63,151 nt of DNA from Desulfobulbaceae bacterium. Lineage in GTDB: Bacteria; Desulfobacterota; Desulfobulbia; Desulfobulbales; Desulfocapsaceae. Made by a program: the position numbers and the translations under genes. Position 1 is the stretch's first letter; each line of letters opens with the position of its first letter. The notes under the pieces were generated by a model, which saw only the letters and a program-made list of their open reading frames with translations, searched no databases and had not been told where the DNA came from. The DNA is taken from assembly GCA_019163335.1 (NCBI GenBank), contig JAFLKM010000007.1, positions 1 through 63,151 on the forward strand, in the 5' to 3' direction. Shown in pieces: positions 556 through 8,993 of this stretch.

Positions 556-607
556 TTTATTGGAGCCGACATGCGGAATCGAACCGCAGACCTACTGATT
601 ACGAATC
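556..607. repeat. attL: 52-bp direct repeat, 3' half of tRNA-Thr
   Basis: This block is identical to 8913-8964. It holds the 3' part of tRNA-Thr, from the anticodon arm through the encoded CCA, plus a few bases beyond. The match stops inside the anticodon stem, where the left copy reads on into unrelated sequence. This is the usual outcome of tyrosine-recombinase integration into a tRNA 3' end. Confidence 0.92.
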
Positions 608-790: not shown

Positions 791-1981
791 ATGGAGAATA
801 AATTCAAGTTTACCGATGAAAGACTTCATAAAATAGAACCGGCACCGGCAGGCAAAAGAACATATTACCATGACCTCTTCACCCCCGGCTTGATGTTGTC
901 GGTGACTTCCTCTGGCACCAAGTCCTTTATGTTTCAGGTATGGAGCAAGGCAAAAGGGCGGTCAGTAACAACCACCCTGGGCCGTTACAATACCGCCATA
1001 TCTCTAAACGAGGCCAGAGCCAAGGCCAAAGAGCTATCAGTGGCAGTCAATGAGGGCAAAGACCCGCAAACAGAGAAGAAAGAAAACCGTGACACCATGA
1101 CCGTTGGAGAAATGCTTGACCGGTATGTCACCGAACACTCGATTCCGCATAAGCGATCCGCCAAAGATGACCAGGCGTTCATCCGCCTGCACCTTAAGCC
1201 GATATTTGGCACCAAGCGCGTTGATGAACCCACCCCCGAATCTGTACGATCCTGGCATAATGGTCTTGTCAAGATCATGAAGCCAGCGTCCGCTAACCGC
1301 ATGCTGGCATTGATGCGATCCGTTTATAACGTCATGATGCCCGACCTTCCTAATCCATGCCGTGGCGTCAAGATGTTTAAGGAATATTCCCGCGACCGAT
1401 TCTTGCAGCCAGAAGAGCTTGAAAGATTCTTCCAGGCTATCGAACATGAACGCGCCACCGGGAATCCTGATATTGCCGACTACTTGCTGTTGAGCATCTT
1501 CTCTGGCGCAAGGCGCGCCAATGTGCTGGCTATGCAATGGAAGGATGTTGATTTTAGCCGGGAACAGTGGCGCATTGCTGGCGAGGACTCGAAAAATAAG
1601 AGCATCATGCTTGTTCCTCTGGTTGGTGAAGTCCTTGAGATTTTGACCAAGCGGCGGTTGACCGCTTCCAGTGTCTTTGTCTTTCCGAGTTATGGGAAGA
1701 CCGGGCACCTTGCAGAACCCCGAAAAGGATGGGACAGGATAAAAAAGACCGCTGGCCTTGTTGATGTCCGCCTGCATGATCTGCGTAGAACCATGGGCAG
1801 TTATCAGACGATCAGCGGCGCGTCAACGGCCATCGTAGGCAAGACACTGGGGCATAAGAACCCGGCAAGCACGGCGGTCTATGCAAGAATGACCCTTGAC
1901 CCTGTTCGAGAAGCAATGGAAAAGGCGGTCCAGTTAATGAAAACACCGGTTGAGAAGAAGATTGTTAATATCAAAAAGTGA
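791..1981 (+). CDS. int: P4-type tyrosine recombinase (integrase)
   Basis: A 396-residue site-specific recombinase that would integrate and excise the element at tRNA-Thr. The N-terminus (about 1-95) has the DUF4102 arm-binding form typical of P4-type integrases, and a SAM-like core-binding domain follows (about 105-190). The catalytic domain shows the first Arg in SGARRANVL (about residue 240), HDLRR (about 328), LGHKN (about 353) and the nucleophilic Tyr in AVYARM (about 362). It starts at ATG 791 after AGAGGAA. It sits directly inside attL with the arm-type repeats just upstream. Length and motifs are intact, so it is probably active. Confidence 0.95.
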   Translation: MENKFKFTDERLHKIEPAPAGKRTYYHDLFTPGLMLSVTSSGTKSFMFQVWSKAKGRSVTTTLGRYNTAISLNEARAKAKELSVAVNEGKDPQTEKKENRDTMTVGEMLDRYVTEHSIPHKRSAKDDQAFIRLHLKPIFGTKRVDEPTPESVRSWHNGLVKIMKPASANRMLALMRSVYNVMMPDLPNPCRGVKMFKEYSRDRFLQPEELERFFQAIEHERATGNPDIADYLLLSIFSGARRANVLAMQWKDVDFSREQWRIAGEDSKNKSIMLVPLVGEVLEILTKRRLTASSVFVFPSYGKTGHLAEPRKGWDRIKKTAGLVDVRLHDLRRTMGSYQTISGASTAIVGKTLGHKNPASTAVYARMTLDPVREAMEKAVQLMKTPVEKKIVNIKK

Positions 1982-2506: not shown

Positions 2507-2719
2507 ATGCCCGAACTGACCCCCACCCCTGCACCATCTACCACCCCGCTTGCAATGCGCGACGTTAAAGCGGCCCCACTTTTGAACATGTCCGTTCACA
2601 CCCTCCGTAAGATGAGAAGCCAAGGTAGAGGCCCCGCCTACATCAAGGCAGACAAGACCGTCCTATATCGCTTGTCCGATCTGGAAGCGTACCTTGAAAA
2701 GCAATTAGTGACTCGCTAA
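2507..2719 (+). CDS. AlpA/excisionase-like HTH regulator
   Basis: A 70-residue protein with a MerR-type winged HTH (HTH_17) over about residues 20-65: the segment LNMSVHTLRKMRSQGRGPAY and then LYRLSDLEAYLEK fit AlpA-like regulators and excisionases. ATG 2507 is preceded by AAGGAG at 8-nt spacing; an upstream in-frame TTG at 2501 is less likely. In P4 and in PICI satellites AlpA-type proteins activate excision or replication genes. Its stop overlaps the next start (TAATG), and the upstream palindromes suggest it regulates its own operon. Confidence 0.8.
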   Translation: MPELTPTPAPSTTPLAMRDVKAAPLLNMSVHTLRKMRSQGRGPAYIKADKTVLYRLSDLEAYLEKQLVTR

Positions 2720-2928
2720 TGCTAATGGCGAAAGAAAAAGGGGCTTGCCTCGAGTATCCACCCCGGATGCAAACCCCTAAAACCAAACAAGACAAGTTTA
2801 ATCCTATACCCTCGATTTGTCAACGAAACTACCTGGTAACCTCCCATTTTCTGGCTGGGTTGGTTGGCAGTGGCGCGGGATTTTGGTTTTACATCTTTGC
2901 GATGATCCTTGTGGAGGTGCTGCGATGA
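2719..2928 (+). CDS. Putative leader peptide coupled to rep
   Basis: A 69-codon frame whose ATG overlaps the preceding stop (TAATG at 2717-2721) and whose TGA (2926-2928) overlaps the rep start (ATGA at 2925-2928). The product has a basic N-terminal half and a hydrophobic C-terminus, and matches no family I know. There is no independent Shine-Dalgarno. Its 5' part is covered by the predicted antisense RNA. The layout resembles the tap leader of IncFII plasmids, whose translation opens the repA start. That role is inferred, and the peptide itself may have no function. Confidence 0.45.
   Translation: MLMAKEKGACLEYPPRMQTPKTKQDKFNPIPSICQRNYLVTSHFLAGLVGSGAGFWFYIFAMILVEVLR
2731..2789 (-). ncRNA. 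Predicted antisense RNA opposite the rep leader
   Basis: On the minus strand a promoter (2795-2823) is followed within about 60 nt by a single long stem-loop and a U tract. The stem pairs AGGGGTTTGC with GCAAGCCCCT (2778-2769 with 2748-2739; one G-T pair), has a 20-nt loop with an inner ATCC/GGAT stem, and ends in TTTTTCTTT (2739-2731). The RNA would be complementary to the rep leader about 135-195 nt upstream of the rep ATG. Size, single hairpin and position match plasmid copy-control RNAs. It is not shown experimentally. Confidence 0.5.
2795..2823 (-). promoter_or_regulatory. Sigma70-type promoter for the antisense RNA
   Basis: Read on the minus strand: a perfect -35 TTGACA (2823-2818), a 17-nt spacer, and a -10 TAAACT (2800-2795) matching four of six consensus bases. 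The expected start is near 2788-2789. It is the cleanest sigma70-type match I found in the element and points against all annotated genes. Confidence 0.55.
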
Positions 2929-3956
2929 ACGCGCCTATTGATGAGGACGGCTATCTGGACACCCTGGGAACTGCCACCGCACCAAAAACTTTCCGACCAG
3001 AAAAAGAACCAGCGCCCCGGGCAGTCTGTACCAATCTGGCAGACTTCCTATCTATCGATTTCCCGCCCCGTGAACCACTACTCACGCCCTGGCTGTCAAA
3101 GCAGTCCATCGTGATGTTGTACGCATGGCGCGGCCTAGGTAAATCCTGGCTGGCTATGTCCATCGGTTATGCCGTGGCCACCGGTTCGGCCCTGCTGAAT
3201 TGGAGCGCACCGGGAAAGGCAAGAGTCCTATACATCGATGGGGAGCTACCCGGTCAAGTCCACCAAGAGAGAATGGCCTTGATCGTGAGTTCATTCCAGG
3301 ATGAACCACTTGAGGATGGCTACCAGATATTTACGCCAGACCTTCAGAAGGACGGCATCATGCCGAACCTATCAACGGCTGAGGGTCAATCAATTATCGA
3401 TGAACACGCCAATAATGCCGACCTGATAATCGTCGATAATCTTTCATGCCTGGCCAGAGGTGGTAAAGAAAACGAAGGCGAGAGCTGGCTACCTATACAG
3501 GCATGGGCACTACGTCACCGGGCTCAAGGGAGATCAATCCTATTTGTCCACCATAGCGGCAAGAACGGACAACAACGTGGTGCATCGAGGCGTGAGGATG
3601 TTCTCGATGTTGTCATTACTCTGAAGCGTCCGGATGAGTACCAGGCCAGCGAAGGGGCAAGGTTTAATCTCCTGTTTGAGAAGTCAAGAAACCTGACAGG
3701 TGATGACGTGGCACCTCTGAGCGTAGAGCTTCAATCAGATGATGGAATGATTACTTGGAAGTGGACACCGGCTGAAAATGCCATCCTTGACCGCGTGGCT
3801 GAATTGGTTGGAGATGGTGCTACCAGGCGAGAGATTCAGGAAGAAACCGGGTTGAGTAGATTCGCCTTAAAACGGCTCATCGAACAGGCAAATACCACCC
3901 GGCCATACACTGAGAGAATCACCCTTCCAGATGCCAGAAAAGGAGGTGCACGATGA
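2925..3956 (+). CDS. RepA-like replication ATPase (RecA-fold helicase)
   Basis: A 343-residue protein of the AAA_25/RepA type, related to the hexameric helicase RepA of RSF1010. After about 45 variable residues comes a Walker A, YAWRGLGKSW (about residue 63), and later a Walker B, LIIVDNLSCL (about 168-177). FVHHSGKNGQQRGASRR follows (about 206) as in RepA/RadA-like ATPases. The C-terminus (about 285-330) looks like a winged HTH, with TRREIQEETGLSRFALKRL. ATG 2925 follows GGAGGTG; an upstream extension in the same frame lacks support. Its stop overlaps the next gene (ATGA). It is the likely replication helicase of the element. Confidence 0.85.
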   Translation: MNAPIDEDGYLDTLGTATAPKTFRPEKEPAPRAVCTNLADFLSIDFPPREPLLTPWLSKQSIVMLYAWRGLGKSWLAMSIGYAVATGSALLNWSAPGKARVLYIDGELPGQVHQERMALIVSSFQDEPLEDGYQIFTPDLQKDGIMPNLSTAEGQSIIDEHANNADLIIVDNLSCLARGGKENEGESWLPIQAWALRHRAQGRSILFVHHSGKNGQQRGASRREDVLDVVITLKRPDEYQASEGARFNLLFEKSRNLTGDDVAPLSVELQSDDGMITWKWTPAENAILDRVAELVGDGATRREIQEETGLSRFALKRLIEQANTTRPYTERITLPDARKGGAR

Positions 3957-4654
3957 CCACTTTACAATGTGCGAATGTGCACCCTAAGGCAAACGCACAT
4001 CCGCACATTAGCCCCGAACCCCGCACATTGTCGCGCACATTACCCGCACATTGCAAAGAAGAGGCGCGCACATTACCCGCACATTGCAAAAACAAGCCTA
4101 CCCTGAAAGCCATAGCCAGTAAGGTTCTTAGGGCATCATTGCAATGTGCGAATGTTCATGCACCTATACGCGCACATCCGCACATTAGCCCCGAACCCCG
4201 CACATTAGAGCGCACATTGTCCGCACATTGTGAGAATAACCCCCGCACATTACCCGCACATTACCCCAAAAACCCTTCAATTACCTATGTGAAGGCTACC
4301 CCCGGAATCTGCATGATCTGTGGTGTGCCCTTGACCGAGAATGGAGGGGACTGCTGGCATAAAGCCTATCACTTTTCCACAAAGAAAAAGTCTGGCATAT
4401 CCTCCGTTGCCTTATCCTGGTTGAAAAAAAACAGGGTTCAGTTACGGCGGCATGGTTGGACAATGGCAGAACTCTACCGGCGGAATCTGTCTCGTGGTAT
4501 CGCATGGTGCAGTCTCTGGGACATGCCGGGTTTGACCATAACAATCGAGACCGGCGGATGTATCAGCTTTTATTTCCAGACTGCTACCGGGCAGAAGATA
4601 AAGCAAACCGCCTGGCCAAAAAAATACGAACGAAAATGGAGACTCAAAAGATGA
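3953..4654 (+). CDS. Iteron-bearing gene with Cys-rich C-terminal domain, function unknown
   Basis: A 233-residue frame with a strong AGGAGG (3941-3946) before ATG 3953, overlapping the rep stop. Its first 105 residues are encoded by iteron DNA, so the peptide repeats itself (RTLPAHCK and HPHISPEPRTL appear twice). The rest looks like a real domain: CMICGVPL with a later C and H could bind zinc (about 119-135), followed by a basic region with SWLKKNRVQLRRHGW and a beta-rich tail. I do not recognise the family. An initiator or accessory replication protein acting at its own iterons is a reasonable guess, comparable with rep genes that carry their origin. Confidence 0.65.
   Translation: MTTLQCANVHPKANAHPHISPEPRTLSRTLPAHCKEEARTLPAHCKNKPTLKAIASKVLRASLQCANVHAPIRAHPHISPEPRTLERTLSAHCENNPRTLPAHYPKNPSITYVKATPGICMICGVPLTENGGDCWHKAYHFSTKKKSGISSVALSWLKKNRVQLRRHGWTMAELYRRNLSRGIAWCSLWDMPGLTITIETGGCISFYFQTATGQKIKQTAWPKKYERKWRLKR
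3966..4262 (+). repeat. Two congruent iteron arrays (candidate replication origin)
   Basis: The heptamer GCACATT starts at 4003, 4023, 4035, 4046, 4068 and 4079, and again at 4180, 4200, 4212, 4223, 4245 and 4256. The spacings, 20-12-11-22-11, are identical in both sets, offset by 177 bp, a whole number of codons. Each set is preceded by the reversed heptamer AATGTGC (3966 and 3974; 4143, with a one-base variant at 4151) and by GCACATC. Phasing near one or two helical turns is typical of Rep-binding iterons. A DnaA-box match, TTTTCCACA, lies 110 bp downstream at 4373-4381. Confidence 0.8.
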
Positions 4655-4983
4655 CCTACATCAACGAAGCAAAATTCACCGGCAAGATTCAGCGATCAGC
4701 CCAGACCAAGGGCAAAACGACCGGCCTGCCAACGCTGAAAATTACTTTGGCCTGTGGAAAAGAGACCATTCACGCCGTCTTGCTGGGAGAGCTGGCCGAA
4801 TCGATCAGCCCGGCTGACGGTGAGTGGATCGAAATCAAAGGCAGTGTCCACACCTCAAGCTGGGATGGCCTAGACGGTATCCGCCGTTTCGGGTGGTATT
4901 GCCTGGCTAAGAAGATACGGTCCATCCCGGAATCTGTCCATTGCTCAGATGTGCCACCAACTGAAAGGAGTACCAAGATATGA
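4651..4983 (+). CDS. SSB-like OB-fold protein
   Basis: A 110-residue protein beginning NEAKFTGKIQRS, the usual first strand of single-stranded DNA binding proteins, with further beta-rich segments (LPTLKITLAC, HAVLLGELAE, EWIEIKGSVHTSSW) fitting one OB-fold over about residues 5-85. There is no acidic SSB tail (DDDIPF). ATG 4651 overlaps the upstream stop and follows GGAG. It would protect ssDNA during replication or RecT-type annealing. The assignment rests on pattern only. Confidence 0.65.
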   Translation: MTYINEAKFTGKIQRSAQTKGKTTGLPTLKITLACGKETIHAVLLGELAESISPADGEWIEIKGSVHTSSWDGLDGIRRFGWYCLAKKIRSIPESVHCSDVPPTERSTKI

Positions 4984-5082: not shown

Positions 5083-5874
5083 ATGATAACACCACACCTG
5101 AGTTTCAAAGAATACCGCGCCATTGATGCCCGAAACTGGTCAAGCCTGAAGAACTATTCAAAGACCCCCGCGCACTACCTGGAAGCCCTTAACAACCCCA
5201 TGACCCAGACCCCGGCCATGTTGGTTGGATCCGCTGTCCATTGCCTTGTCCTGGAAGGAGTGCAGGCTTTCGACCGGCAGTACATCGAAGCACCTGAAGG
5301 AATCGACCGTCGCACAAAAGAAGGAAAGCTGGCATGGGCTGAATTCCAAGAGAAAGCCACCGGCAGAGAGATCTTGACCGCTGACCAGTATGATCAGGTC
5401 TGCCAGATGTGGAAGTCTGTGATGGCCCACCCTACCGCTGGAAAGTTGCTGGCAATGGCAGATCAGAGGGAGCTGTCCGCCACCTGGACAGATACCACCG
5501 GCATCGATTGCAAGGCCCGGATTGATGCCTATTCAGAAGAGCATGGGCTAGTTGTCGATCTGAAAACCACCGCTGAGGCTGACCCAAAGACCTTTGGCCG
5601 TACCATTGCAAATTTCCAATACCATGGGCAGGCCAGCTTTTATATGCAGGCCATGAAGAAGAACGACCTACCCGCCCGGCAGTTCATTTTTATTTGTGTA
5701 GAAAAAGTCCCACCCTATGCCGTCGCCTGCTACATCCTTGACGATGAAGCTCTGATGGCAGGGAATCAGTTAGTTGATGGCTATCTTTCCCGGCATGCTG
5801 AGTGCGTCGCGGCTGACAATTTCCCCGGCTATCCTGCTGAGGTTCAAACAATCACACTCCCCGCGTGGGCATAA
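5083..5874 (+). CDS. RecE/exonuclease VIII-like PD-(D/E)XK nuclease
   Basis: A 263-residue protein of the phage DUF3799/PDDEXK_14 type, whose members resemble the nuclease domain of RecE and resect double-strand ends 5' to 3'. The N-terminal WSSLKNYSKTPAHYLEAL and AMLVGSAVHCLVLE are family hallmarks. The active site is visible as GIDCKARIDAY followed by LVVDLKTT (about residues 147-168). Near the C-terminus come YHGQASFYMQAM and FIFICVEKVPPY. ATG 5083 follows TAAGGAG. The next gene encodes a RecT-like protein 9 bp later, the classic RecE/RecT pairing. Confidence 0.85.
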   Translation: MITPHLSFKEYRAIDARNWSSLKNYSKTPAHYLEALNNPMTQTPAMLVGSAVHCLVLEGVQAFDRQYIEAPEGIDRRTKEGKLAWAEFQEKATGREILTADQYDQVCQMWKSVMAHPTAGKLLAMADQRELSATWTDTTGIDCKARIDAYSEEHGLVVDLKTTAEADPKTFGRTIANFQYHGQASFYMQAMKKNDLPARQFIFICVEKVPPYAVACYILDDEALMAGNQLVDGYLSRHAECVAADNFPGYPAEVQTITLPAWA

Positions 5875-5883
5875 AGGAGATCC

Positions 5884-6516
5884 ATGGAAAATCTACCCGC
5901 CGTATCGGTTGCACCTGGAATGGAGATCAGCACCACCAATCAGAACGAATCCTTTTTCCTGTCTGGTGACTCTTTTGAACATGGTCAACGTATCGCCAAA
6001 ATGCTGGCATCGTCCGACCTTGTACCAGCTCAATTCAAAGGCAATATTCAAAACTGCTTGCTTGCTATGGAGCTGGCGAACAGGACCGGCAGTTCACCCC
6101 TGGCAGTTATGCAAAACCTCTATGTGGTTCATTCAAAGCCTTCTTGGAGTAGCCAGTTCATCGTTGCCTGCTTGAATAGCTGTGGCAAGTTCTCCCCTCT
6201 GAGGTTCGAGATCACCGGCACCGGCGCTGATATGGAGTGCCGGGCTGTTGCTACCGACCTGGCCACCGGGGAAGCTATCACCGGCCCTGTCGTTTCAATG
6301 GAGATGAGTAGGAAGGAAGGATGGTATGCCAAAACAGGAAGCAAGTGGCAAACCATGCCAGAGCTGATGTTGCGTTATCGTAGTGCCACCTTCTTTGGCA
6401 GGCTATACGCGCCTGAAATCCTGATGGGCATGCAGACCAGTGAAGAGGTCCAGGACATACAACGGGCCACCCGGGAAGCGGCGGCGCGGTCAATCAACGA
6501 TCTGTTGAATAGCTAG
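5884..6516 (+). CDS. RecT-like ssDNA annealing protein
   Basis: A 210-residue phage recombinase of the RecT/Red-beta group. The stretches NCLLAMELANRTGSSPLAVM, NLYVVHSKPSWSSQFI and LRYRSATFFGRLYAPE are the pattern I associate with RecT-family annealing proteins, which pair complementary single strands produced by the partner nuclease. ATG 5884 follows AAAGGAGATCC. It forms one unit with the RecE-like gene. The C-terminus ends soon after the conserved core, so the protein is on the short side. Catalysis needs no cofactor, hence no active-site motif to inspect. Confidence 0.75.
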   Translation: MENLPAVSVAPGMEISTTNQNESFFLSGDSFEHGQRIAKMLASSDLVPAQFKGNIQNCLLAMELANRTGSSPLAVMQNLYVVHSKPSWSSQFIVACLNSCGKFSPLRFEITGTGADMECRAVATDLATGEAITGPVVSMEMSRKEGWYAKTGSKWQTMPELMLRYRSATFFGRLYAPEILMGMQTSEEVQDIQRATREAAARSINDLLNS

Positions 6517-6590: not shown

Positions 6591-7247
6591 ATGAAAGACA
6601 CCATCACCACCGTAGAGCTACCACAAGAAGTTAATCTCACTGACTGGTATCAGCAAGAAGAGACTAGGGTTGCTCAAATGATCATTAAAGCCTTGAAGGG
6701 CTCAAAAGCCCTGACCGACGCCGCCAAGGTCTGGGAAAAATCGGTAGAGGATCAAAAACGAATTAAACGTGAGTTCGAAGAAATGAAGATCCGGCGCGGT
6801 GACATGGCCGTTGAGATTGAGGACTTAAAACGGAACATTGGTGCTGAAGATTCGTTCGCTGACCTGAGGAAGATTGAGGGGCTCCAATCTGAGCTAAAGG
6901 CGATTGATGAGGTCTTGCCAGGGATGGAGCGACGTTTTTATAACGATAGTGCCTTTACCCGGCAAATTAGAGATAATAAGTACAACGCAATTTTTCTTAT
7001 AGATGCCGAGCTTGCCAAGGTCAACGCGTCCCTGAAAGAAGACATTGACCGCCGTGCAGAAGACTTAATATTGACGATAAAGGCATACAAGTCCGCCACT
7101 GAGCTTGCCAGAAGTGAGCAAAAGGCAATCCCCTCCGCCTTGTTGCAGCTAGGGTCTATCATGAAGATCGTGCCTAAGATCGAAGGGCTAGAAGGTTTGG
7201 TTGAGCTAGACCCTTTCGCCTCGACTGCATCGCTGCGCCGATACTAA
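6591..7247 (+). CDS. Phage-type coiled-coil protein of unknown function
   Basis: A 218-residue, highly charged protein predicted to be mostly helical. Heptad-like stretches occur at about 45-90 and 120-175, with many Glu, Lys and Arg. The end turns hydrophobic around KIVPKIEGLEGLVELDPF. ATG 6591 follows GAAAGGAAACCACC. It lies between the recT-like and ruvC-like genes, so a role in element recombination or replication is plausible, but I recognise no family and assign no function. Confidence 0.7.
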   Translation: MKDTITTVELPQEVNLTDWYQQEETRVAQMIIKALKGSKALTDAAKVWEKSVEDQKRIKREFEEMKIRRGDMAVEIEDLKRNIGAEDSFADLRKIEGLQSELKAIDEVLPGMERRFYNDSAFTRQIRDNKYNAIFLIDAELAKVNASLKEDIDRRAEDLILTIKAYKSATELARSEQKAIPSALLQLGSIMKIVPKIEGLEGLVELDPFASTASLRRY

Positions 7248-7314: not shown

Positions 7315-7782
7315 ATGAGTTTAATGATTGGAATAGACCCCGGAGTCACCGGCGGCGTCGCTCTTTTTCTGGATGGCGAGCTGTTAGCAGTTGATCCACT
7401 CCCCACCCGCGCCCGGCTGTATGGTTCAGGGCTTCAGCTTGATGGTGCTGGCCTTAAGTCCTGGCTGATGGAGATGAGAGCAGGGCGGCCCTGTGTAGCG
7501 ATCTTAGAGGCGGTATCAAGCAGACCAGGGCAGGGCGTCCGTAGTGTATTCAATTTCGGGCACTGCCTGGGAACTATCGAGGGCGTGTTGGCATCGCTCG
7601 GTATTCCCTACCAGCTTGTCAGTGCCAGCGTATGGAAAAAACGGGCTGGTCTCATCGGTAAGCCAAAGAGCGCGTCAAGATCACTTGCTATGCAGTTGTT
7701 CCCTGACCAGACAGACAGGTTTAAGCGTGTCAAGGATGATGGCCTGGCTGAGGCGTGTCTAATAGCGAAGTTTGGGCAATAG
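7315..7782 (+). CDS. RuvC-like Holliday junction resolvase
   Basis: A 155-residue RNase H-fold endonuclease of the phage RuvC-like kind, resolving four-way junctions or branched DNA. The first strand MIGIDPGVTGGVAL carries the first catalytic Asp (about residue 7). AILEAVSSRPGQG holds the Glu (about 65), and the last acidic pair is in KDDGLAEACLIA near the C-terminus. FNFGHCLGTIEGVLASLGI is a family signature. ATG 7315 follows GAAAGGAAACCC; the upstream in-frame extension is not supported. In phages such enzymes clear branched DNA before packaging, which fits the next genes. Confidence 0.85.
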   Translation: MSLMIGIDPGVTGGVALFLDGELLAVDPLPTRARLYGSGLQLDGAGLKSWLMEMRAGRPCVAILEAVSSRPGQGVRSVFNFGHCLGTIEGVLASLGIPYQLVSASVWKKRAGLIGKPKSASRSLAMQLFPDQTDRFKRVKDDGLAEACLIAKFGQ

Positions 7783-7896: not shown

Positions 7897-8463
7897 ATGG
7901 AATTTGATACCCAAACGGCAGTAATAAAGCACCTGACAGGCCTTGGCTACAAGGCCACCCGTTGCAATGTCTCGTATCATGTGAAACTCGGACACCTGGC
8001 CAAAGTAAACGGCAGATTCCCCCTGGACTTGGTAACCCGGTTCGCTGAGTCGTACCTCGTAAAATCTGATACAGGGCTAACCATCGGCACCTCTGAGCTT
8101 ATAGGCGCAAAGGAGCTGAAAACCCGCCTTGAGGCTGAGAGACTACAGGAACAAGTCCACATGGCAAGGCTGCAACGTGAACGGCTCCAAGGAAAATACA
8201 TTTCCAGGGAAGAGGTCTATCTCGAACTTGCCGCCCGCGCCGTTGTCATTGGTACAGGTCTGTCGCACATGTTCCAGATTAAAGGGATTGATATCATCAG
8301 CACGGTTGAGGGGAAGACTGCCCGATATCCGGAATTAATCGAATTCCTACAAGGTGAGGTGGATGAACTGCTTAACAGCTACGCCTCTACTGATGAGTTT
8401 GAGGTGCTGTTCGAGGAGGCGGCGGCTGGGATTGAAAAAACCACTGACCCAGACCAAGGGTAA
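7897..8463 (+). CDS. Terminase small subunit-like protein (Nu1/TerS-type)
   Basis: A 188-residue protein starting with an HTH-like segment (FDTQTAVIKHLTGLGYKATR), then a charged coiled coil of about 40 residues (KELKTRLEAERLQEQVHMAR). GKYISREEVYLELAARAVVI and a helical tail with YPELIEFLQGEVDELLNSYA follow. That order, HTH, coiled coil, then a REEV-type helical domain, is what I associate with Nu1/TerS proteins, which mark DNA for packaging. ATG 7897 follows AAGAGG; a GTG at 7855 has no ribosome site. No large terminase is present, as in satellites that redirect helper packaging. Moderate confidence. Confidence 0.55.
   Translation: MEFDTQTAVIKHLTGLGYKATRCNVSYHVKLGHLAKVNGRFPLDLVTRFAESYLVKSDTGLTIGTSELIGAKELKTRLEAERLQEQVHMARLQRERLQGKYISREEVYLELAARAVVIGTGLSHMFQIKGIDIISTVEGKTARYPELIEFLQGEVDELLNSYASTDEFEVLFEEAAAGIEKTTDPDQG

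Positions 8464-8912: not shown

Positions 8913-8993
<81 letters not shown>

Follow-up and report, generated by a model that had tools for sequence, protein, structure and literature searches.

A RepA-type helicase with a predicted C-terminal HTH is the likely reader of iteron-like repeats downstream of its own gene

Introduction

The replication origins of PICIs lie immediately 3′ of rep and contain two iteron sets flanking an AT-rich stretch; in Gram-negative PICIs transcription runs one way, and PICI initiators have been described as a primase homolog plus an initiator (PMC6092414). In the PLE of V. cholerae, RepA domains covary with the origins and swap as modules (PMC8263062, PMC7145576), a specificity that has been shown experimentally (PMC8263062). 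Origin recognition and helicase activity are combined in one protein in phage P4 alpha (title cited in PMC8628076). Alpha additionally has primase activity, and the helicase it contains belongs to a different class. The iterons of RSF1010 are bound by a separate protein, RepC. Origins have been described inside coding genes, both in gene O of lambdoid phages (PMC7466680) and in P1, where oriL has been placed in repL (PMC9948254). For a plasmid primase, origin recognition through the C-terminal winged helix has been suggested, and primase-RepA-helicase fusions have been noted (PMC5862659).

Here we analyze a heptamer array in an integrated element of a Desulfobulbaceae bacterium (contig JAFLKM010000007.1; the window is the whole stretch analyzed, 63,151 nucleotides). 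Like PICI origins (SaPI, EcCICFT073 rep-ori), the array has likely iterons immediately 3′ of rep, in two sets flanking a possible melting site. In contrast to PICIs, the Rep of the window is a RepA-like helicase (RecA fold, AAA_25) with a C-terminal HTH, the iterons of the window type are ~7 bp at ~11-bp steps, and the putative origin overlaps a gene in some lineages. The covariation of a satellite initiator's DNA-binding domain with its origin is shared with the PLE, whereas the PLE initiator belongs to the RepA_N family, has an N-terminal DNA-binding domain, uses ~30-bp semi-palindromic intergenic iterons, and has a C-terminal domain hypothesised to recruit the replisome (PMC8263062). As in lambdoid O and P1 repL, the essential DNA sites would lie inside a coding gene; however, in those systems that gene encodes the initiator, while in the window it is a different gene, downstream of the initiator-helicase. 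Origins within genes and Rep/iteron covariation are therefore already known, and what is new is a RepA-type helicase-HTH family as the likely iteron reader.

Results

An integrated element at tRNA-Thr

The element occupies 8.4 kb at tRNA-Thr and is flanked by an exact 52-bp direct repeat (Table 1). It fulfils the PICI gene-set criterion, since it encodes an integrase, an AlpA/xis-type protein and Rep and has two sets of likely iterons directly 3′ of the rep gene. On sequence alone, it looks like a phage satellite. No capsid family was matched among the window products scanned with Pfam and PHROGs. Genes psu/sid/delta are the mark of P4-like satellites, and neither these names nor alpha were found among the Pfam and PHROG matches of the scanned window proteins (P4 proteins were not used as queries). 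Promoter and terminator scans (5 matches against 3.1 expected and 3 against 3.6, respectively) were given no weight.

A primase homolog (pri), either fused to rep or separate from it, is a further PICI feature. AAA_25 was the only Pfam family above the cut-off on Rep. PHROG families named for polymerases or primases also match Rep (e.g. phrog_906, E 4.2e-15, positions 511-736 of 872); we take the matched part to be the helicase portion of these families. No primase match was found in any other window product scanned (Pfam, PHROGs).

The same genome contains a second element (L017:7062-11650, contig C20) with a primase-helicase match, an SSB match and, by eye, an AlpA-like ORF, and it also encodes an ORF with the C-terminal domain of the window ORF 3953-4654. 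Its SSB match (L017:10274-10636) is at the same place as the possibly SSB-like small protein of the window.

Table 1. Positions of the features discussed, with the matches, model or location on which each reading is based
Feature	Positions	Strand	Basis or remark
Left-end direct repeat, 52 bp, copy of sequence at tRNA-Thr	556-607	.	exact match to 8913-8964
Tyrosine integrase	791-1981	+	Phage_integrase E 1.1e-18, phrog_1 E 2.9e-61
AlpA/excisionase-like HTH protein	2507-2719	+	HTH_17 E 4.7e-9, phrog_66 E 5e-6
Rep, RepA-type (RecA-fold) helicase with C-terminal HTH (predicted)	2925-3956	+	AAA_25 E 1.2e-24
Rep C-terminal three-helix segment, residues 283-325, read as HTH	3771-3899	+	model helices
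Putative recognition helix segment LSRFALKRL, Rep 310-318	3852-3878	+	best-covarying 8-column window of 287
ORF, 233 aa, likely iterons in N-terminal half; C-terminal domain common to other elements	3953-4654	+	
First set of likely iterons	3966-4085	.	reversed heptamers 3966, 3974; forward 4003, 4023, 4035, 4046, 4068, 4079
Codons for LKAIASKVL, conserved peptide between the two sets	4103-4129	+	motif in 27 loci
Second set of likely iterons	4143-4262	.	reversed heptamer 4143; forward 4180, 4200, 4212, 4223, 4245, 4256; first set at +177
Small protein, possibly SSB-like	4654-4983	+	from location alone; nothing in PHROGs at E 0.01
RecE/exonuclease VIII-like nuclease	5083-5874	+	phrog_412 E 1.8e-78, DUF3799 E 3.1e-37
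RecT-like annealing protein	5884-6516	+	phrog_561 E 6.8e-76
ORF of unassigned function	6591-7247		between RecT-like and RuvC-like genes
RuvC-like Holliday junction resolvase	7315-7782	+	phrog_1770 E 8.1e-32
Weak terminase-small-subunit-like (TerS-like) protein	7897-8463	+	phrog_57 E 1.3e-4
Small HTH protein			last in the element's gene order, after the TerS-like gene
Right-end repeat and tRNA-Thr gene	8913-8964; tRNA-Thr 8918-8993	-	repeat overlaps tRNA gene

A heptamer array immediately after rep

Fifteen exact copies of GCACATT/AATGTGC were found in 3966-4262, on both strands and in all three reading frames. In the whole window the heptamer occurs 23 times against 10.0 expected (maximum of 18 in 100 shuffles), and in a 730-nt stretch that spans and follows the rep stop the top 7-mer has 16 copies, compared with a maximum of 4 in 40 resamples. 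A preliminary description, made from the sequence alone, had reported six GCACATT heptamers with spacings 20-12-11-22-11 that recur at 177 bp with the reading frame preserved, and both points held: the forward spacings are the same in the two sets, and the offset is exactly 177 bp, or 59 codons. Its placement of the arrays in a coding region directly after rep, behind a strong ribosome site, also held, since ORF 3953-4654 overlaps the end of rep by four bases and has AGGAGG before its ATG. Its claim of reversed heptamers before each set held in part: two exact copies precede the first set, but of the two before the second set only one is exact, the other being degenerate. A DnaA-box match that it had added (4373-4381) carries no weight and was dropped as a part of the origin, because the motif occurs at chance frequency (6 times in the window versus 4.9 expected). 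Inverted arms of 13 nt at 4369-4381 and 4753-4765 contain this DnaA-box-like TTTTCCACA on opposite strands.

The 177-bp copies are identical at 113/177 positions. Over their first 135 nt, differences affect 1/56 heptamer bases versus 31/79 other bases (Fisher p 7e-8, with heptamer positions defined in the first copy), indicating that the heptamers were kept while the spacers drifted. Over all 177 nt the non-heptamer differences number 63/121, the last 42 nt scarcely aligning. A relative from the same genus (L059) has one series only, running 29-8-19, LKAL codons, 12-11-22-11-31 (one degenerate site counted), with nine exact heptamers that again fall in all three frames. The spacing 12-11-22-11 thus recurs in the window and L059, and parts of the pattern were seen in two other loci (12-11-22 and 20-12-11 in L003, 12-11 in L004, counting degenerate GCACAAT sites). 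Because L059 has a single series, the identical spacing of the two window sets is best explained by duplication, and the doubled array is likely to be a 177-bp local tandem duplication. Since one set looks like a copy of the other, their identical spacing is not independent evidence, and the helical-phase argument was moved to a test across the family.

One alternative is that the repeats are merely a peptide repeat of the ORF product, as the in-frame 177-bp offset and the recurrence of RTL..PAHC in the peptide would suggest. However, the heptamer is read in the window as RTL, AHC/AHY, PHI, QCA and NVH, and its presence in three frames and on both strands means that no single peptide repeat explains the array. 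Likewise, in 27/27 loci with the LKALA ORF (described below) the 5-base core of the top 7-mer occurs in at least two phases of the same strand within the ORF, although this count includes chance matches and the top 7-mer of L039 is probably no iteron. The sparing of heptamer bases but not of spacers also speaks against a peptide repeat, as does the finding that 20 of the first 45 codons differ between the copies, with the amino acid changed in 14. Contradicted by frames, strands and spared heptamers, the peptide-repeat reading is all but excluded.

Rep is a RepA-type helicase with a predicted C-terminal HTH

The AF2 model of Rep (pLDDT 80.9) has RSF1010 RepA as its best structural match (1g8y_A: Z 22.7, rmsd 2.8, 229 residues aligned), and Foldseek aligned it with 1nlf_A at E 5.2e-12. 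Rep meets the criterion for a RecA-fold RepA helicase domain (RSF1010 RepA family), RSF1010 RepA being the closest solved fold for this domain. The model has C-terminal helices at residues 283-296, 301-308 and 312-325 (block pLDDT 70-83), and these three short helices are likely, on the model's prediction, to form an HTH. The alignment of RSF1010 RepA chains with the model stops at residue 298, leaving the rest of the HTH without a counterpart there. Searching PDB sequences with the Rep C-terminus gave two matches at E <= 1 (8vd6_A, E 6e-7; 4l5i_A, E 0.97).

Repeat arrays follow rep across the family

Relatives of Rep were identified in bacterial genome contigs (13), in IMG/VR (5, 20, 32 and 53, in overlapping sets) and in whole genomes, where they were present in 16/395 of a phylum sample, 8/257 of the class, and 1/41, 1/21, 1/12, 7/85, 62/348 and 10/379 of other genome groups. 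The whole-genome searches used differing profiles and E limits; at most 30 loci were taken per genome search, and one search contributed loci for only part of its matches. Searches of phage and plasmid records gave 8 matches, then 3 plasmids and 3 phages, at 25-31% identity save for a Nitrobacter hamburgensis plasmid (43.5% over 44% of the query). Scanning with the L053 protein alone brought up no relative.

Removing 5 N-terminally truncated loci and 49 that duplicated another's last 150 residues reduced 187 Rep loci to 133, and 3 more with <300 nt downstream were set aside, leaving 130 unique loci for the array test. The top 7-mer exceeded all 60 resamples in 74/130 and did not in 56/130; HTH-bearing Reps without a clear array include L006, L015, L020, L021 and L039, among others. 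Where a usable cluster was present (65 loci), the median first copy lay at +16 nt and the last at +221 nt past the rep stop; there were 8 exact copies, and the largest gap had a median of 56 nt. One criterion for an iteron-type origin, multiple short repeats adjoining the initiator gene, is fulfilled. Across the family the gap is more AT-rich than the array (0.57 vs 0.51, p 0.001, 64 loci); the same comparison gave p 0.10 in 18 loci with the LKALA ORF, and in the window the gap between the sets is only slightly AT-richer (0.54 vs 0.45).

Distances between same-strand starts peak at 8, 11-12, 22-23, 33 and 44 bp in 54 non-redundant loci. The best period was 11.25 bp (R 0.355, and 0.353 at 11) against a null 95% limit of 0.145 from uniform distances, the test being based on 532 distances that are non-independent within a locus. 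The near-helical spacing first proposed for the window therefore held across the family, at ~11 bp.

Strong repeats of other kinds were also observed after Rep-like genes, namely GGCACAC (20 copies, L134) and AAGAGGA (10 copies, L084). Soon after the array region, L018 encodes a major head protein and a head maturation protease, L022 encodes a scaffold and a major head protein, and L019-L021 look like L018 by eye; it is possible that L018-L022 resemble capsid-forming satellites.

The repeat sequence follows the recognition helix of Rep

For each column of the Rep alignment, we asked whether a shared residue predicts shared repeat 6-mers once helicase identity has been regressed out, limiting pairs to <65% identity and using either 111 loci (HTH aligned) or 82 loci (clear repeat). 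The segment SRFALKRL was the best of 287 eight-column windows, with a mean r of 0.164 in the 82 loci (0.002 for the median window), and it also ranked first in all 111 loci (0.139) and for pairs below 45% helicase identity (0.109). The last 46 columns held 13 (82 loci), 11 (111 loci) and 6 (<45% identity) of the top 15 covarying columns, and the best single column reached 0.272 against a locus-permutation 95% maximum of 0.108 (82 loci). With mock regions in place of the array, the helix window ranked 20, 90 and 272 of 287 (+700 to +1300, the last 600 nt of rep, and -1900 to -1300, respectively).

The relation was also used for prediction, taking as donor the locus with the most similar helix at <60% helicase identity and counting success when the donor's repeat 6-mer had >=3 copies in the target. 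For the 62/111 targets having a donor of helix identity >= 0.66, the repeat was predicted in 43/62, versus 5/62 when donors were matched for distance but had another helix. As a second control we took the closest relative by helicase whose helix differed; it "predicted" the repeat in 22/62, indicating that shared ancestry accounts for some of the signal at higher identity. At <45% identity the prediction succeeded in 15/22, compared with 0/22 and 1/22 for the distance-matched and nearest-relative controls. For 24 usable targets outside the donor set (24 of 50 non-donors; 10 in the non-donor group were above resamples with <6 copies), the figures were 16/24, 1/24 and 12/24. Some misses are instructive: L052 (SKGLVSR, AGTTTAC) and L188 (DKGYVSR, AGTTGAC) are two helix residues and one base apart.

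In 70 loci of one scaffold, 57 different helices of nine residues go with 41 different top 7-mers. A template fixed the register of the helix and repeat pairs, which include SKGQVSK with AGTTTCC, SKGLVSR with AGTTTAC, DKGYVSR with AGTTGAC, SKSKVQR with TGTCCCA, SKGAIQR with TGTACCG, NKSNVSR with AGTTGCG and SRFALKR with AATGTGC. A natural switch was seen at the fourth of the nine helix residues, Ser versus Gly/Ala, where KSKS helices go with GTCCC (30:13, 8 loci) and KSK[GA] helices with GTACC (49:1, 9 loci; Mann-Whitney p 0.0005). The sample comprised 17 loci whose helices are of the KSK/RSK type and whose helicases are 67-100% identical to that of L155; being related, they represent few independent events. 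An exception is L169, which has a KSKS helix yet more GTACC (4) than GTCCC (2), and L180 has Ser plus Gln at the seventh position with GTCCC:GTACC at 3 to 1. The C-terminal HTH of Rep is thus the likely reader of the repeats, on evidence that is indirect, consisting of covariation with the recognition helix without binding data.

Covariation of HTH and iteron identifies a partner and not a function, and the array lies within an operon, both of which would be compatible with an operator through which the Rep HTH regulates operon expression with no start of replication. This seems unlikely, as there are 15 sites over 300 bp after a helicase gene, in two sets around a gap and with ~11-bp phasing, and an array immediately 3′ of rep resembles known PICI origins (PMC6092414). 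It is still less likely that the array serves the TerS-like protein as a packaging site or is recognised by it in some other role: the element does have a weak TerS-like gene, but this gene is ~3.6 kb from the array, and the array covaries with Rep's helix (TerS covariation was outside the comparison).

A gene shares its 5′ half with the array

ORF 3953-4654 is a real gene. The motif LK.LA...L follows the rep stop by 58-146 nt in 27 loci, of which two are near-duplicates, and mean entropy over the five LK.LA codons is 1.37 bits at the third position versus 0.53 at the first and 0.15 at the second; since third positions vary most, the LKALA peptide is constrained. The LKALA ORF had no match in viral contigs, Pfam or PHROGs.

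The C-terminal domain of the ORF was found in 20/242 genomes of the class. Of 26 loci encoding it (all counted for heptamers and Rep matches; the 13/26 that fit the motif pattern were read), only the window (L194, 15 copies) and the L059 place (L216, 9 copies) have the heptamer array, and only these have a strong match to the window Rep family (487.6 and 460.8 bits). In the remaining 24, heptamers number 0 or 1 and a Rep match is absent or weak (50.8 and 33.8 bits in two); several of these loci encode different N-termini. Heptamers occurring only where the Rep match is strong (2/26) indicates that the iterons travel with Rep and that the N-terminal half of the gene carries them. The preliminary description had named homologues that keep the protein sequence but lose the heptamer spacing as a sign that the repeats are only a peptide repeat; with 24/26 domain loci at 0-1 heptamer and arrays present only with Rep, the outcome instead favours a DNA site.

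The preliminary description had also left open whether the binder was the RepA-like protein or the 3953-4654 protein. The ORF protein could bind repeats within its own gene as lambda O does, and the location of the iterons inside ORF 3953-4654 is consistent with this, lambdoid iterons likewise lying mid-gene in O (PMC7466680). However, the ORF protein is not generally needed, 47/65 arrays lacking an LKALA ORF by pattern search (some of these are covered by another ORF), 24 loci have its C-terminal domain but not the heptamer array, and the repeat sequence tracks Rep's helix. Binding by the ORF protein is accordingly unlikely, and Rep's C-terminal HTH remains the likely binder.

Upstream of the same C-terminal domain, L201 has AACCGGC in ten copies (null maximum 4) and lacks a match to the window Rep family; this array may belong to another iteron system using the same downstream gene. 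The N-termini of the domain-family proteins at L195, L198, L201 and L017:9792-10277 have what we take to be a likeness to TubC-type docking segments.

Discussion

We propose that the heptamers are iterons of the element's replication origin and are bound by the helicase's own HTH, an interpretation that is likely but has no binding or replication assay behind it. An origin embedded in a gene, as the preliminary description had it, is well supported by the comparison and not proven, origin activity being inferred. As in P4 alpha, origin recognition and helicase activity would be combined in one protein.

In the proposed mechanism the element would first be excised, after which several Rep HTHs would occupy the two iteron sets, probably with one HTH per 7-bp site and sitting on one face of the DNA at ~11-bp steps. 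Direct binding is inferred here. The stretch between the sets, which in the branch of the window comprises the LKALA codons, may then be opened by the bound Rep, and the RecA-fold Rep ring would assemble on it, load itself and start a fork; self-loading by the helicase is likewise an inference. Recombination-dependent amplification may be the task of the RecE/RecT and RuvC-like proteins. In the lineage of the window the putative origin would overlap the N-terminal half of the next gene, with LKALAxxVL encoded between the iteron sets, and the role of this peptide is inferred.

A bolder reading, which we put forward with some reserve as the evidence falls a little short of favouring it, is that RepA-type helicases of a widespread family each read their own origin by a plug-in HTH, and that the iteron sequence can be deduced from its recognition helix. 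The LKALA protein would then be a helicase partner encoded across the melting site in one branch, making origin and cofactor one locus. In the open-access literature searched (subscription papers and preprints were outside its scope), we found no description of a RepA-type helicase whose C-terminal HTH is matched to iterons downstream, of its readable helix-iteron relation, or of the overlap with a downstream gene.

The pairs of helix and iteron would constitute a testable natural code of protein-DNA recognition, with one-step switches between near relatives. From sequence alone, they could show where the origins of integrated elements not yet characterised lie; they could supply orthogonal helicase/origin pairs and could explain the compatibility of co-resident elements. 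In the lineage of the window, gene and putative origin would occupy the same DNA under two kinds of selection.
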